This document shows, in pieces, positions 20,382 through 63,583 of a DNA stretch of 64,000 bases. Both the position numbers and the translations under genes were made by a program. Below the pieces are notes generated by a model. It was not told where the DNA came from. It ran no database searches and saw nothing but the letters and a program-made list of their open reading frames with translations. Each line of letters begins with the position of its first letter. Within the stretch, counting starts at the first letter, position 1. The DNA comes from Syntrophobotulus glycolicus DSM 8271 (lineage in GTDB: Bacteria > Bacillota > Desulfitobacteriia > Desulfitobacteriales > Syntrophobotulaceae), in contig NC_015172.1 of the NCBI RefSeq assembly GCF_000190635.1, positions 3,286,001 through 3,350,000 of the forward strand, read 5' to 3'.

Positions 20382-20420
20382 GAAAAAGGAAGCGCCTGTT
20401 TAACAGACCCTTCCCCTTTT
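20382..20420 (-). terminator. intrinsic terminator of spoIIID
   Basis: Minus-strand hairpin GGAAG...CTGTT/AACAG...CTTCC followed by TTTTTC, 13 bases after the spoIIID stop. mbl therefore probably uses its own promoter in the AT-rich 20221-20380 region. Confidence 0.75.
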
Positions 20421-20432
20421 GCCTTAAACTCT

Positions 20433-20693
20433 TTAATCTTCTTCACTGGAGTGTTTATATTTTCTTTTTGTTGCTTCTCCTCCCCTGATATGCCTCTCTG
20501 CTTTGTTGCTGTCAAGTATATTTTTAACTTCAGCGGATAATTGTTTATTGATTTGCGGCAATCTTTCTGTCACATCTTTATGTACCGTGCTTTTTGATAC
20601 CCCAAATATTTCTGCTGTTCTTCTAACGGTTGAGCTGGATTCCATAATATAAGTGCCAATATCCAGGGCCCTTTTCTTTATATGTTCCTGCAC
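20433..20693 (-). CDS. spoIIID: sporulation transcription factor SpoIIID
   Basis: DNA-binding regulator of mother-cell genes that modulates the sigma-E and sigma-K regulons. The 86 residues match the family throughout: MQEHIKKRALDIGTYIMESSSTVR, then a helix-turn-helix (EIFGVSKSTVHKDVTERL, about 29-46) and a basic C-terminal tail. Start GTG with GAGGG nearby. A -10-like TATACATT lies 40 bases upstream, resembling a sigma-E -10, but no matching -35 is seen. Strong evidence that the organism forms endospores. Confidence 0.97.
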   Translation of the reverse strand: MQEHIKKRALDIGTYIMESSSTVRRTAEIFGVSKSTVHKDVTERLPQINKQLSAEVKNILDSNKAERHIRGGEATKRKYKHSSEED

Positions 20694-56996: not shown

Positions 56997-58073
56997 TTAT
57001 CCAACCCTGAGTACTTTGTTCTTACCTGCAATTTTAGCTTTATACATATTTTTGTCCGCATTGCGGAAGATCTCATCCAAGGTGCTCCCTTGAATATCAG
57101 CCACTCCAATACTGACCGTTAAAGGCATTCCATCCTTTAGGAAAGTCTCTTCAACTGTTTTTCTGATACGTTCGGCAATTGTCTCCGCAGCCTGAGCATT
57201 AATTTCGGGCAATAAGACAAAAAACTCATCCCCGCCGTAACGTCCGGCAATATCTATATTACGGACACTGGTCTTTAGGATACCCGCAATCATTTTAATC
57301 GCTTTATCCCCTGCCTGATGTCCATATCTGTCATTAATTATCTTAAAATTATCAATATCGATCATCAGTACGGAACACTGCACTCCTGTTCTAATCGATT
57401 TATTTAAATCCTTTTGGATATGATTTCTAACAAAACGCCAATTGTACAGTCCCGTCATTTCATCTGTCAGAGACAGCTTCACAGCTTTTTTGTGAATTCG
57501 ATTATACTCTTCCGAGTAAACATAAAGCAAATTTGCAATAAAGAAAAACACCATTTGGAAAAAAATAGCCTTATCCCAATACCCTTGTAACCTGGAGACA
57601 GGAAAATAGACCGAATCAGGATACAAACCCTGTATCGTGATCAAGCTCAAAAGAACAAGAAAATAGCTGATGCTGTACCTGCTTTTTAATTTTCCGTTGA
57701 GAAACACAACTGTAATTGCCGCAAATACCATACTTAAATATGGTGTAAATCCTGAAATTCCGCCATTCGCAAACCAAAGAGCCGGCGTAAGAAGAAAATT
57801 GTCAAATATGACCATCAGCAATATCGCTAAATACTGCTTCCCTAAAAACCTGGAAAGCCAAAATACGCTGGTGTGAAAAAAGGCGGCGGCTATTGAAATC
57901 ATTAAGTTTGGATGATTGGGATAGATCAGCAAAGAAAAAATACAAAAATTAATCCATAAAATTACCGCCATCAACAAGCAAAAATTCTGCATTACATTTT
58001 TGAAATCCACATCTTTCTCTTTGCCTGTTAAAAAATCCATCACTTGACGGTATTTATTCTTTTTCTTCGGCAT
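56997..58073 (-). CDS. membrane diguanylate cyclase (GGDEF)
   Basis: Makes cyclic di-GMP. The 358 residues have six or so membrane segments (about 30-190) without a recognisable sensor fold, then a GGDEF domain (about 200-356) with the active site GGDEF at 280-284. RNID at 271-274, five residues upstream, is the RxxD inhibitory site, so the enzyme should be feedback inhibited. No EAL or HD-GYP in the chain. AAGGAG upstream of ATG. It is divergent from the SLAC1-type gene. Confidence 0.93.
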   Translation of the reverse strand: MPKKKNKYRQVMDFLTGKEKDVDFKNVMQNFCLLMAVILWINFCIFSLLIYPNHPNLMISIAAAFFHTSVFWLSRFLGKQYLAILLMVIFDNFLLTPALWFANGGISGFTPYLSMVFAAITVVFLNGKLKSRYSISYFLVLLSLITIQGLYPDSVYFPVSRLQGYWDKAIFFQMVFFFIANLLYVYSEEYNRIHKKAVKLSLTDEMTGLYNWRFVRNHIQKDLNKSIRTGVQCSVLMIDIDNFKIINDRYGHQAGDKAIKMIAGILKTSVRNIDIAGRYGGDEFFVLLPEINAQAAETIAERIRKTVEETFLKDGMPLTVSIGVADIQGSTLDEIFRNADKNMYKAKIAGKNKVLRVG

Positions 58074-59943: not shown

Positions 59944-61119
59944 TTACGGACGGTTCCTGTTTTCTATGATCCTGCAAACCTCCGCTTGTATACTTCCAAT
60001 AGAAACATGATTTTGCTTTGCCAGCTTTTTGCAATCTTCATATTCAGGCTTATATTTAATGACCTTTCCCTGATAGCTGGAAAATTTGACCCTGAGAAGG
60101 CCAAAAACAGTATTTATTTCTTCGACATGGCGTTCAAGCTTTACTTTCTCCACAGGAAATTTACGCAATCCTATCGCCGTCGTCTCCCGAAAAACAATTT
60201 CAGTGAGGCTTTCTAAATCTTTTTCCCTGGCAAGAACCGACAATTTGACCGCCGGTCGTCCCTTTTTCATGATGATCGGTGTCTTAAAGACATCCAATGC
60301 TCCGCAAGAAAAAAGCTCCTCTTCAACGTACGGAAAGTATTCCGGATTCATATCATCAATATTGATCTCCAAAATATAGTTTTCTTCAGCTGATTGTTTT
60401 CGGCCCCATAAGACTCTAAGTGCATTAGGAATCTCTAGAATCCTTTTGCCTAAACCATATCCTGTCTTCTCTATAACAAAATCTATTTTATCTGCAAAGG
60501 CATTGACATTTTCCGCTAAGATAACAGCACCCGTTGGCGTGGTTGTTTCCTTCATCACTTTCCCCGAAGTTACCGGAACCCCTGAAAGCAGCTCCAATAC
60601 AGCAGGCACCGGCACAGGAAGTATTCCATGGGCACACTCAACAAAGCCGCCGCCAAGCTCTATTTTGGAGGACAATATTTTATCCGGTTTTAGATAATCC
60701 AGACAAACGGCCGCCCCGACAATGTCAATGATAGAGTCTATTGCGCCTACCTCGTGAAAATGCACCTCTTCAATGGTGGTTCCGTGAATTTTGGCCTCGC
60801 TTTCAGCCAGCCGGGTGAACATAGCCAGACTTAAATCCCGAACATACTCGGTTAACTTGCTTTTTTTGATGATTTCCCTGATTTCTCCGTAATGGCGCTG
60901 CTTGCCCTCGTCTATCTCGCATATGCTCAGGATTTCAACCCTGTTTCCGCATATCCCTCCGCGTTCATCTCTCCTGACCAGAAACTGATACTCATTTGCC
61001 AGCCCCAGCTTAGCCAATTCCTTCAGCAAATACTCCTCAGGCACCCCAAGGTCAAGAAGTGCCGCAAGATGCATGTCCCCGCTAATTCCCGCAAAACAAT
61101 CATAATAAAGTATCCGCAT
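59944..61119 (-). CDS. larC: nickel insertion protein LarC
   Basis: CTP-dependent enzyme that inserts nickel into the pincer nucleotide of lactate racemase and related enzymes. The 391 residues are in one frame: YYDCFAGISGDMHLAALLDLG at the start, HFHEVGAIDSIIDIVGAAVCLDYL (about 121-144), ALRVLWGRK (about 242), LEINIDDMNPEYFPYVEEELFSCGALDVFKTPI (about 253-285) and a C-terminal KYKPEYEDCKKLAKQN. In Lactobacillus larC1/larC2 are joined by frameshifting; this gene needs none. larA, larB and larE are not in the window. Confidence 0.95.
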   Translation of the reverse strand: MRILYYDCFAGISGDMHLAALLDLGVPEEYLLKELAKLGLANEYQFLVRRDERGGICGNRVEILSICEIDEGKQRHYGEIREIIKKSKLTEYVRDLSLAMFTRLAESEAKIHGTTIEEVHFHEVGAIDSIIDIVGAAVCLDYLKPDKILSSKIELGGGFVECAHGILPVPVPAVLELLSGVPVTSGKVMKETTTPTGAVILAENVNAFADKIDFVIEKTGYGLGKRILEIPNALRVLWGRKQSAEENYILEINIDDMNPEYFPYVEEELFSCGALDVFKTPIIMKKGRPAVKLSVLAREKDLESLTEIVFRETTAIGLRKFPVEKVKLERHVEEINTVFGLLRVKFSSYQGKVIKYKPEYEDCKKLAKQNHVSIGSIQAEVCRIIENRNRP

Positions 61120-61149: not shown

Positions 61150-63273
61150 TCACATTATAACACAGGTGGAACTTTCTGTGATTTTTAGCTTTGTCTCCAC
61201 TATCCTGTTATCCATCATTTCCAAAAATTTTGATACCAGAAAGGGATCGAATTGGGTCCCGGAATTTTTTGTGATTTCGGTTATCGCCTCATCCTTAGAC
61301 ATTGCTTTGCGGTAAGGCCTGTCATTTGTCATCGCGTCATATGTATCAATGATGGATAGAATTCTGCATTCCAGAGGAATCGCCTCCCCTTTGATCCCTA
61401 AAGGATATCCTGCTCCATCCCATCTTTCGTGATGCATAAGGATGTACTTTGAGATACTGTTCAGCTCCGGCAGGGATTGTGCGATTCTATATCCTATTTC
61501 ACTGTGCCTTTTCATTTCCGTCATTTCTTCTTCTGTCAATGCAGCAGGCTTAAAGAGAATATTATCCGATATTCCAACCTTGCCCAGATCATGAAACTGG
61601 GCCAATAGGTCCAGATCATTTATTCTATTTTCCGGTACGCCAAGATACCTCCCTAATTCCATGACCATATTTCTCATCCTGTCGGCATGTCCTTCTGTAA
61701 TAAAATCCCTGGCCTCCAGGGTCTTCATTAATGCCTTGACCGCATTATTTCTGACACTATTAATATGGTTCAGCTTCTCTCGATACATATGATCATCTGC
61801 TTCTTTATACAGTTCGTTCGCTTTTTTGTTTCTGTTATTACAGACAGCATAGCCCATAGAAATATTTAAGAGCAGCTGAGGATTTTCCCTGTTGTACTCA
61901 TTTGCCCAATTCATAATTTTTCTGCAGATACTGTTGACATATTCTTCCGACTCATTATAAACAAGTACAGCAAACTCATCTCCTCCAATCCGGAATAAAT
62001 GTTCTCCGGCAGTGGTGGACTGCTTGATGGATTGAGCCGCGGCAATCAGGATCTTGTCTCCTACTTCATGTCCTAATGTATCGTTAATCAATTTCAGGCC
62101 ATCAACATCACAGATGATGATTCCATAATGACTAAAAATACCGCTCTCCAGCTTAACCAAATTTTGTTCAAAAGAATTCCTGTTCAGGATACCTGTCAGG
62201 GGATCATGCAGGCTGATATAAGCTAATTCACGTTCTTTTTCTTTGCGTTCTTTGATTTCAGATTGGAGCTCCTTGATCAAAGATTTATCCTGACAAATCA
62301 TTACCGTGCCGACAGCGTCCCCTGCCTGATCATGAACGATGGAAACATGAAGACTGATCGGAATCTTTGTGCCAAAATAAGTCCTTCCGTTGATTTCTTC
62401 AATCAAGACCTGTTTGTCCTTTGCCGCCTTCTGCCATAAATCATTAAATTTAACCTCAATGATTTGTTCTAATCTACTTCCGGCAAGCTTATTTTTTTCA
62501 TACCCTAATAATTGACTGCCTCTTTCATTAATTCTTAAAATATTGCCCAGAGGATCAGTAATGATTGCTACGTCCGTGATCTTATCAACGATATCCTCCG
62601 GGGAAATTAATGCGGAAATATTAAGCATTTTATACTTGATACTGGTATACAAAATTGCAAAGATGAGAATCAGGAACATAACATAATCCCAGTAGGATGA
62701 ATATCGCAAGGTATAATGAAGAACCAGATCATTAAATAAGGTCAGAAGTAAAGTGATTATGCCGAAAGAAAACAAAATCCTGATTTGTTTTCTTTCTCTG
62801 GCCACTTTAGATTTTTGTCGCCATTTCCATATTACGACCAAACTGATGAGATCAAACATATAGATATAGATGATTTCCAGCCACCAAAAAATTTCCGGAA
62901 TGACTGTTGCCCTGTTCTCAAAGGTATTAATGAAAATGTTGTATAAACTTAATAATACTCCCGGCAAAAAAATCATTGATCTTTTGCCGACAGTATTGCC
63001 CCACTCTTCTTTATGCCCGATAATCAGTGCCATGCTCAAAAGCAGTCCGGGATAATTCAGCCAGGTTAACTCTCCAACCCGAACCAGAAAATAATATATT
63101 TGGGGCTCACTCACATTCAGCAAAAACAGCTCCACTAATGTGCCGCCCGTAAACAATAGGCTCATTCTTACAAATAGAAGGTTGAGCTTGGATTTACTGC
63201 CGATAATATACGCGTAAACTCCCATTCCCAGATAGATTAATAAAGCCGTATAAATCAATAAAAGTTTAAACAT
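61150..63273 (-). CDS. membrane PAS-GGDEF-HD-GYP cyclic-di-GMP enzyme
   Basis: A 707-residue sensor. Residues about 1-215 form seven membrane helices (PF16927-like 7TM sensor), 228-335 a PAS domain (VDKITDVAIITDPLGNILRINERGSQLLGYE), 355-500 a GGDEF domain with intact GGDEF at 430-434 but no RxxD inhibitory site upstream, and about 510-690 an HD-GYP domain with HD at 561-562, HHE at 614-616 and GYP at 622-624. So it can both make and break c-di-GMP in principle. GGGGGG precedes the ATG. A c-di-GMP-I riboswitch lies in its leader, so product level should control its own gene. Confidence 0.95.
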   Translation of the reverse strand: MFKLLLIYTALLIYLGMGVYAYIIGSKSKLNLLFVRMSLLFTGGTLVELFLLNVSEPQIYYFLVRVGELTWLNYPGLLLSMALIIGHKEEWGNTVGKRSMIFLPGVLLSLYNIFINTFENRATVIPEIFWWLEIIYIYMFDLISLVVIWKWRQKSKVARERKQIRILFSFGIITLLLTLFNDLVLHYTLRYSSYWDYVMFLILIFAILYTSIKYKMLNISALISPEDIVDKITDVAIITDPLGNILRINERGSQLLGYEKNKLAGSRLEQIIEVKFNDLWQKAAKDKQVLIEEINGRTYFGTKIPISLHVSIVHDQAGDAVGTVMICQDKSLIKELQSEIKERKEKERELAYISLHDPLTGILNRNSFEQNLVKLESGIFSHYGIIICDVDGLKLINDTLGHEVGDKILIAAAQSIKQSTTAGEHLFRIGGDEFAVLVYNESEEYVNSICRKIMNWANEYNRENPQLLLNISMGYAVCNNRNKKANELYKEADDHMYREKLNHINSVRNNAVKALMKTLEARDFITEGHADRMRNMVMELGRYLGVPENRINDLDLLAQFHDLGKVGISDNILFKPAALTEEEMTEMKRHSEIGYRIAQSLPELNSISKYILMHHERWDGAGYPLGIKGEAIPLECRILSIIDTYDAMTNDRPYRKAMSKDEAITEITKNSGTQFDPFLVSKFLEMMDNRIVETKLKITESSTCVIM

Positions 63274-63308
63274 CCTTTATACCCCCCATATTGAACCAAG
63301 GGAATACT

Positions 63309-63343
63309 CTCAAAATAAATAACAGCTCTGCAAGCTGTTATTT
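63309..63343 (-). terminator. hairpin of the c-di-GMP riboswitch expression platform
   Basis: Perfect 11-bp stem (AAATAACAGCT / AGCTGTTATTT, loop TGCAG) then ATTTTG on the minus strand, just after the aptamer and 36 bases before the coding start. Either an intrinsic terminator or the regulated part of the switch. Confidence 0.7.
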
Positions 63344-63344
63344 G

Positions 63345-63437
63345 CCGGCCTTAATAGCGGCCTGGCAGTCATTGATACTCTCATATCTTTAGACCCATAG
63401 CTTTGCGTCCCTGCATTTCCACAGGTTTGCCCTTAAT
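63345..63437 (-). promoter_or_regulatory. cyclic-di-GMP-I (GEMM-I) riboswitch
   Basis: The minus strand holds the class I aptamer: GGCAAACC, a stem CCTGTG/TGCAGG closed by a GAAA tetraloop, GGGACGCAAAGC, GGGTCTAAAG of the tetraloop receptor, a second hairpin around ATAT...GTAT, and TGCCAGGC. Order and spacing follow the known consensus. It lies 72 bases upstream of the GGDEF/HD-GYP gene and ahead of a terminator-like hairpin. The rest of the 310-bp gap (63438-63583) shows nothing further. Confidence 0.94.
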
Positions 63438-63583
63438 ATTCCAACCCTTTTTATTAAAAATTGGCATTCATTATTTTTCAATTTTTATATTTCGACTTAT
63501 TTTTAATTTTTCCTTCCTTTTTTGTTTTATTTTTCTATTTTTACTTTATGCCGCTTGCGGGACAATATCCTGTCCCGGAAAAA

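Follow-up and report, generated by a model that had tools for sequence, protein, structure and literature searches.

A c-di-GMP-I riboswitch preceding a GGDEF/HD-GYP gene of Syntrophobotulus glycolicus, and its counterparts on c-di-GMP turnover genes of related bacteria

Introduction

Riboswitches of the c-di-GMP-I class (GEMM-I) on genes for c-di-GMP turnover have been reported since the first GEMM papers, as summarized in PMC12564702, and this placement has been called rare (PMC6366702). According to PMC6200980, the functional class I switches of C. difficile are OFF switches, while class I ON switches also exist, exemplified by antitermination at pgcA of Geobacter and by Vc2 of Vibrio (for the latter, PMC12564702). 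Within the GEMM-I fold, the presence of A or G at base 20 sets the preference for cGAMP or c-di-GMP, respectively (PMC6456294). S. glycolicus DSM 8271 is a glycolate-oxidizing anaerobe that has been described as non-motile yet carries numerous flagellar genes (PMC3156405). Here we analyze a 64 kb stretch of its genome, hereafter the window, in which a c-di-GMP-I aptamer precedes a gene for a GGDEF/HD-GYP protein, and compare this locus with others from the same order.

Results

The window contains a complete c-di-GMP-I aptamer

Cmscan comparison of all 64 kb, using the gathering thresholds, retrieved a single Rfam match in the window, to RF01051 (c-di-GMP-I) on the minus strand (Table 1); it scored 74.0 bits (E 1.2e-12; gathering cut-off 35) and aligned end to end with model positions 1–87. 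This was the Infernal check suggested along with the original prediction of a GEMM-I aptamer, and all the motifs then named are in place: GCAAACC, a GAAA-type loop and the sequences GGGACGCAAAGC, GGGTCTAAAG and TGCCAGGC. The span originally proposed begins 4 nt inside the aptamer and covers the following hairpin and U-tract (63343–63312). The covariance-model match and the motifs, together with an ORF starting at 63273 and encoding PAS, GGDEF and HD-GYP domains, confirm the observation; judged from its sequence, the element preceding this c-di-GMP turnover gene is a genuine and canonical c-di-GMP-I riboswitch, ordinary for its class. A search of the S. glycolicus genome for c-di-GMP-II, done without a positive control, produced no match. 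Similar DNA was sought in plasmids, with one short match to the aptamer and nothing else, and the search for close relatives among genome contigs gave only two matches, both partial and distant.

Table 1. Features of the aptamer locus, in positions of the window.
Feature	Position	Strand	Basis
Possible sigma-A promoter	63453..63481	-	TTGAAA (63481-63476), 17 nt, TTTAAT (63458-63453)
c-di-GMP-I (GEMM-I) aptamer	63353..63441	-	RF01051 covariance-model match and alignment
Aptamer motif GCAAACC	63430-63424	-	
Aptamer motif GGGACGCAAAGC	63411-63400	-	
Aptamer motif GGGTCTAAAG	63396-63387	-	
Aptamer motif TGCCAGGC	63367-63360	-	
Predicted anti-aptamer hairpin	63344..63366	-	GCCAGGCC (63366-63359) / GGCCGGC (63350-63344); folding
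Terminator-like hairpin	63312..63343	-	AAATAACAGCTT / GAGCTGTTATTT, 12 bp, 3-nt loop, then ATTTT; folding
GTATTCCC, able to pair with the G-run	63307-63300	-	Sequence and folding (part of region 63282..63307)
G-rich Shine-Dalgarno-like run GGGGGG	63287-63282	-	Sequence
Membrane PAS-GGDEF-HD-GYP protein, 707 aa	61150..63273	-	ORF, Pfam, residues, PDB matches
larC-like nickel insertion gene	59944..61119	-	PF01969, 474 bits; same strand

In the RF01051 alignment, the aptamer shows G at the equivalent of Vc2 position 20, with A and C, both canonical, at the equivalents of positions 47 and 92, which we take to be the Vc2 numbers of these ligand-contact positions. The A20 that characterizes the GEMM-Ib cGAMP riboswitch is replaced here by G. 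On the protein side, the downstream enzyme contains the guanine-reading Asp (GHEVGD), presumably equivalent, via a PleD/GacA alignment, to Ser347 of the cGAMP-making GacA. From the G20 in the RNA and the Asp in the enzyme, c-di-GMP is predicted at both ends of the proposed loop, and on the same two grounds we rejected cGAMP as the ligand.

Position 20 is an A, as is typical of the cGAMP-sensing GEMM-Ib type, in three of the ten aptamers from S. glycolicus (L001/L011, 3225704–3225788; L006/L015, 1516492–1516575; L010/L018, 1070289–1070372; genome G000), one of which is upstream of an HD-GYP gene and another of a CWB2 gene. This A is also found in the Dehalobacter-like aptamers L100, L103 and L104, all of them on turnover genes. 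A preference for c-di-GMP may nonetheless persist in some aptamers with A20.

The downstream gene encodes cyclase and phosphodiesterase domains

The deduced 707-aa product has a membrane-like N-terminal part followed by PAS (residues 227–329), GGDEF (355–505) and HD-GYP (HD_5; 514–677) domains, as defined with Pfam. The GGDEF domain (PF00990, 118 bits) preserves the motifs RIGGDEF and GHEVGD, and has TAGE instead of RxxD at the I-site position; since the RxxD I-site is optional in the GGDEF family, this substitution does not affect the membership of the protein among diguanylate cyclases. The HD-GYP part aligns over its full length with HD-GYP enzymes of known structure (e.g., 4mcw) and retains the residues HDLGKVGI and HHERWDGAGYP. 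The domain features originally claimed, i.e., an intact GGDEF active site, the absence of an I-site and a complete set of HD-GYP residues, were thus borne out, and from these motifs both cyclase and phosphodiesterase activities are possible for the protein. The larC-like gene begins 30 nt past the stop codon of the GGDEF/HD-GYP gene and is probably included in the same transcript.

The window holds a second c-di-GMP gene (56997–58073, minus strand), coding for a 358-aa membrane GGDEF protein with an intact I-site (RNID). Elsewhere in the genome, the guanine-reading Asp of a GGDEF-HD-GYP protein (L154; G000 2961717–2962160) is substituted by Asn (GHEYGN), and the substrate preference of this protein may be altered.

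The leader contains a terminator-like hairpin and predicted alternative pairings

Upstream of the aptamer, a promoter-like pair of hexamers coincides by eye with 10 of the 12 consensus positions; a stricter scan did not call it, and shuffled sequences yielded 1.3 sites per region. A sigma-A promoter at this place, which is suggestive only, would start the transcript at around 63447, which coincides with the 5′ strand of P1.

Folding predicts two consecutive hairpins at and behind the 3′ end of the aptamer (Table 1). The first is mutually exclusive with P3 and P1 of the aptamer and of modest strength, which was reached by 162 of 2000 shuffles of the downstream sequence; this rules it out as proof of a switch. 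The second is terminator-like, and its score was not equaled in any of 300 rounds of mononucleotide shuffling of the leader; it was not called by a stricter pattern scan, and its U-tract is short. Additionally, the G-run ahead of the start codon can pair in the folds with GUAUUCCC; such sequestration of the Shine-Dalgarno region makes translational control possible as well.

In folds of the growing chain, the sequence CAGCUU from the 5′ arm of the terminator is paired upstream with a probability of 0.6–0.9 in the free state, its partner being the freed 5′ strand of P1 (GGGUUG). When the aptamer is enforced, this probability is 0.04–0.45 until the terminator starts closing. This antiterminator is weak, consisting of 6 bp of which three are G-U, and the aptamer fold is less stable than the free fold by 4–9 kcal/mol, a difference that leaves out the energies of ligand binding and tertiary contacts. 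In full-length folds the terminator prevails in both the free and the aptamer-enforced states and, consequently, what the folds can show is a kinetic switch at most. Overall, the modeled leader leans weakly toward termination upon ligand binding.

In Dehalobacter-like relatives whose GGDEF-HD-GYP gene carries an aptamer, a 9-bp antiterminator, CAGUCGGGU with ACCGCGGCUG, links the 3′ strand of the aptamer to the 5′ arm of a strong terminator; in the relative G007 the pair is GCUACGA with UCGUGGC. Because these antiterminators overlap the aptamer, the ligand should promote termination in the relatives. By analogy, the switch in the window is probably also OFF.

Aptamers on turnover genes are recurrent and associated with phosphodiesterase domains

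The genome of S. glycolicus DSM 8271 (G000; 3,406,739 bases in one contig) contains ten c-di-GMP-I aptamers, along with 19 GGDEF, 15 HD-GYP and 6 EAL matches. Apart from that in the window, one aptamer lies 194 nt upstream of a stand-alone HD-GYP gene and another is followed by a CWB2 gene and then by a GGDEF-HD-GYP gene. Within the same family, turnover genes were 14 of the 48 sampled downstream genes (13 with HD-GYP and one GGDEF-EAL), a count that excludes one further turnover gene, L104, truncated by the end of its contig. The sample from sister families, taken in order of aptamer score, included 12 turnover genes among 53 downstream genes (10 with HD-GYP, one with EAL and one with GGDEF alone), the main aptamer target there being chemotaxis receptors (20/53). 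Taking both samples together, 26 of 101 aptamers with a downstream gene precede turnover genes, and 25 of these 26 genes contain a phosphodiesterase domain. The original prediction placed the riboswitch on the gene for the synthase and phosphodiesterase of its own ligand; the assignment to the gene was correct, whereas the emphasis on the synthase was misplaced, a phosphodiesterase domain being what 25 of the 26 have in common.

Many of the 26 genes are orthologs, so these placements do not represent independent events. The tree situates the gene from the window and those from the Dehalobacter-like group in different supported clades, from which we can infer that aptamers reached GGDEF-HD-GYP genes at least twice. 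The aptamer-linked turnover genes thus comprise at least two separate GGDEF-HD-GYP clades, as well as stand-alone HD-GYP and GGDEF-EAL genes. No conservation of the leader was found among relatives of the whole protein, and those from G071, G027 and G028 lack the aptamer. We consider it possible, though this is a tentative generalization, that in Desulfitobacterium, Desulfosporosinus and Dehalobacter relatives phosphodiesterase genes, mainly of the HD-GYP type, acquired c-di-GMP-I aptamers as OFF switches on repeated and independent occasions.

Several other aptamers deserve mention. Three from S. glycolicus (L012, L013 and L017; G000 20418–20507, 3108266–3108357 and 1225438–1225527) are followed by strong hairpins without a clear target gene; L013 and L017 are downstream of genes with S-layer-like sequence, and L012 is upstream of a sigma-70 region 4 ORF and an integrase-like ORF, sigma-like ORFs being similarly located behind aptamers L141 and L146 in relatives. 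L016 (G000 1642294–1642478) consists of tandem c-di-GMP-I aptamers, separated by ca. 33 nt, upstream of a gene for a secreted glycosyl hydrolase of family 5 (cellulase-like). In G072, the aptamer on a GGDEF-HD-GYP gene (L086/L065) scores best as c-di-GMP-I-GGC (RF03167, 62.5 bits), as does L183, on a Dehalobacter-like gene. Six low-scoring c-di-GMP-I relatives from Dehalobacter-like genomes (L122–L124 and L126–L128) have U at position 20, precede genes for NhaB-type Na+/H+ antiporters and possibly correspond to the c-di-GMP-I-UAU variant, with another ligand. Finally, TPP riboswitches adjoin several GGDEF-HD-GYP genes (L055, L057–L062 and L194, Desulfosporosinus-like) and probably belong to the neighboring gene.

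Loss of the I-site is common with and without an aptamer

Among 57 GGDEF-HD-GYP rows sampled from the order, RxxD is kept in 25 and absent in 32; three of the latter (L058, L073 and L075) were omitted from the tree on account of a false motif match, which brings the true absences to 29 among 54 rows. For at least nine of the rows lacking RxxD, a leader of 450 nt or more was scanned and contains no aptamer. In the clade of the window protein, RxxD loss is common with or without a riboswitch, the majority of rows, one Desulfosporosinus-like branch aside, being without the site; RxxD is kept in the S. glycolicus gene that stands second behind another aptamer. The original suggestion that RNA feedback could replace the missing I-site is hence unsupported as a rule, and we rejected it as such after this count and the tree. 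The Dehalobacter-like group is the one case in which loss of the site and presence of the aptamer coincide while the nearest kin keep the site; for this group the idea is possible, and for the window it is unsupported.

Discussion

Our preferred interpretation, to which we assign a probability of about 0.6, is that the riboswitch tunes the GGDEF/HD-GYP gene, and probably larC, to c-di-GMP by transcription attenuation, probably from its own promoter and more likely as an OFF switch. The steps of attenuation that we infer are as follows. With ligand bound, P3 and P1 would hold and the 5′ arm of the terminator would have no competitor, ending transcription. In the absence of ligand, the anti-aptamer hairpin would form from the 3′ strand of the aptamer, freeing the 5′ strand GGGUUG, which could pair with CAGCUU in the terminator arm and delay the terminator. 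An OFF switch on a gene with a phosphodiesterase domain could result in positive feedback; the net sign of the loop would follow from the dominant activity, GGDEF or HD-GYP, and the genes preferred by these aptamers suggest that the phosphodiesterase is what matters.

The strongest rival, which we judge rather unlikely, is an ON switch for homeostasis, where the ligand would cause read-through or free the Shine-Dalgarno region and high c-di-GMP would raise a mainly degrading enzyme, in a negative feedback. Class I ON switches do exist elsewhere, nearly all the linked genes have a phosphodiesterase domain, for which ON control would be homeostatic, and the phosphodiesterase genes of C. difficile go up moderately as c-di-GMP rises, according to PMC6200980. 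However, in none of the computed folds did the aptamer disfavor the terminator, and the antiterminators of the relatives use strands of the aptamer, giving OFF control.

Much less probable is that the RNA loop stands in for the missing I-site, shutting off the cyclase as its product accumulates. In the window protein, as well as in the Dehalobacter-like group and the gene from G072, RxxD is absent and an aptamer is adjacent, and class I switches are usually OFF in C. difficile (PMC6200980). Against this, the site is lacking in the majority of the sampled rows, including at least nine devoid of an aptamer in the scanned leader, and is kept in two aptamer-linked genes, L157, which is distal in its operon, and the GGDEF-EAL gene L121; moreover, there is only one plain cyclase among the linked genes, almost all of which have a phosphodiesterase domain. 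With an OFF switch and a mainly phosphodiesterase protein, the loop would be a positive feedback and not a replacement for product inhibition. Lastly, a decayed or idle copy, whose aptamer binds the ligand and no longer changes expression, would agree with the terminator forming in both states at full length and with the full-length relatives that lack an aptamer, but is highly improbable given that all conserved parts are intact at 74 bits and that the terminator-like hairpin is correctly placed and beyond chance.

If the generalization to the order were true, rising c-di-GMP would shut off its own breakdown, and this RNA-based positive feedback could lock cells in the sessile state. The recurrent pairing of riboswitch and phosphodiesterase is in our opinion worth more than the reading originally given to the window. 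With around a quarter of the sampled aptamers on turnover genes, it becomes testable whether the second messenger uses RNA to control its own level and, if so, what the sign of that control is.

The locus shares with the RF01051 class the whole aptamer, including the GAAA tetraloop and its receptor and the three ligand-contact bases (G, A and C), as well as its location in a leader and the terminator-like hairpin behind it; the aptamer itself does not differ in any respect, and the target here is a c-di-GMP turnover gene. The class I riboswitches of C. difficile reportedly act on surface, motility and protease genes, whereas the target in the window is a GGDEF-HD-GYP gene. Both are clostridial leader switches, the functional ones of C. 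difficile being OFF as stated in PMC6200980. In Geobacter, the GEMM-Ib cGAMP riboswitch and the Hypr GGDEF enzyme likewise combine a cyclic-dinucleotide aptamer of the same fold with a GGDEF enzyme, but the G20 and the Asp of the window predict c-di-GMP on both sides. Further parallels are the Dehalobacter-like and Desulfosporosinus-like loci, with the same aptamer class on HD-GYP or GGDEF-HD-GYP genes; the Dehalobacter-like GGDEF-HD-GYP genes differ from that in the window in belonging to another clade and in having a much clearer antiterminator-terminator arrangement.
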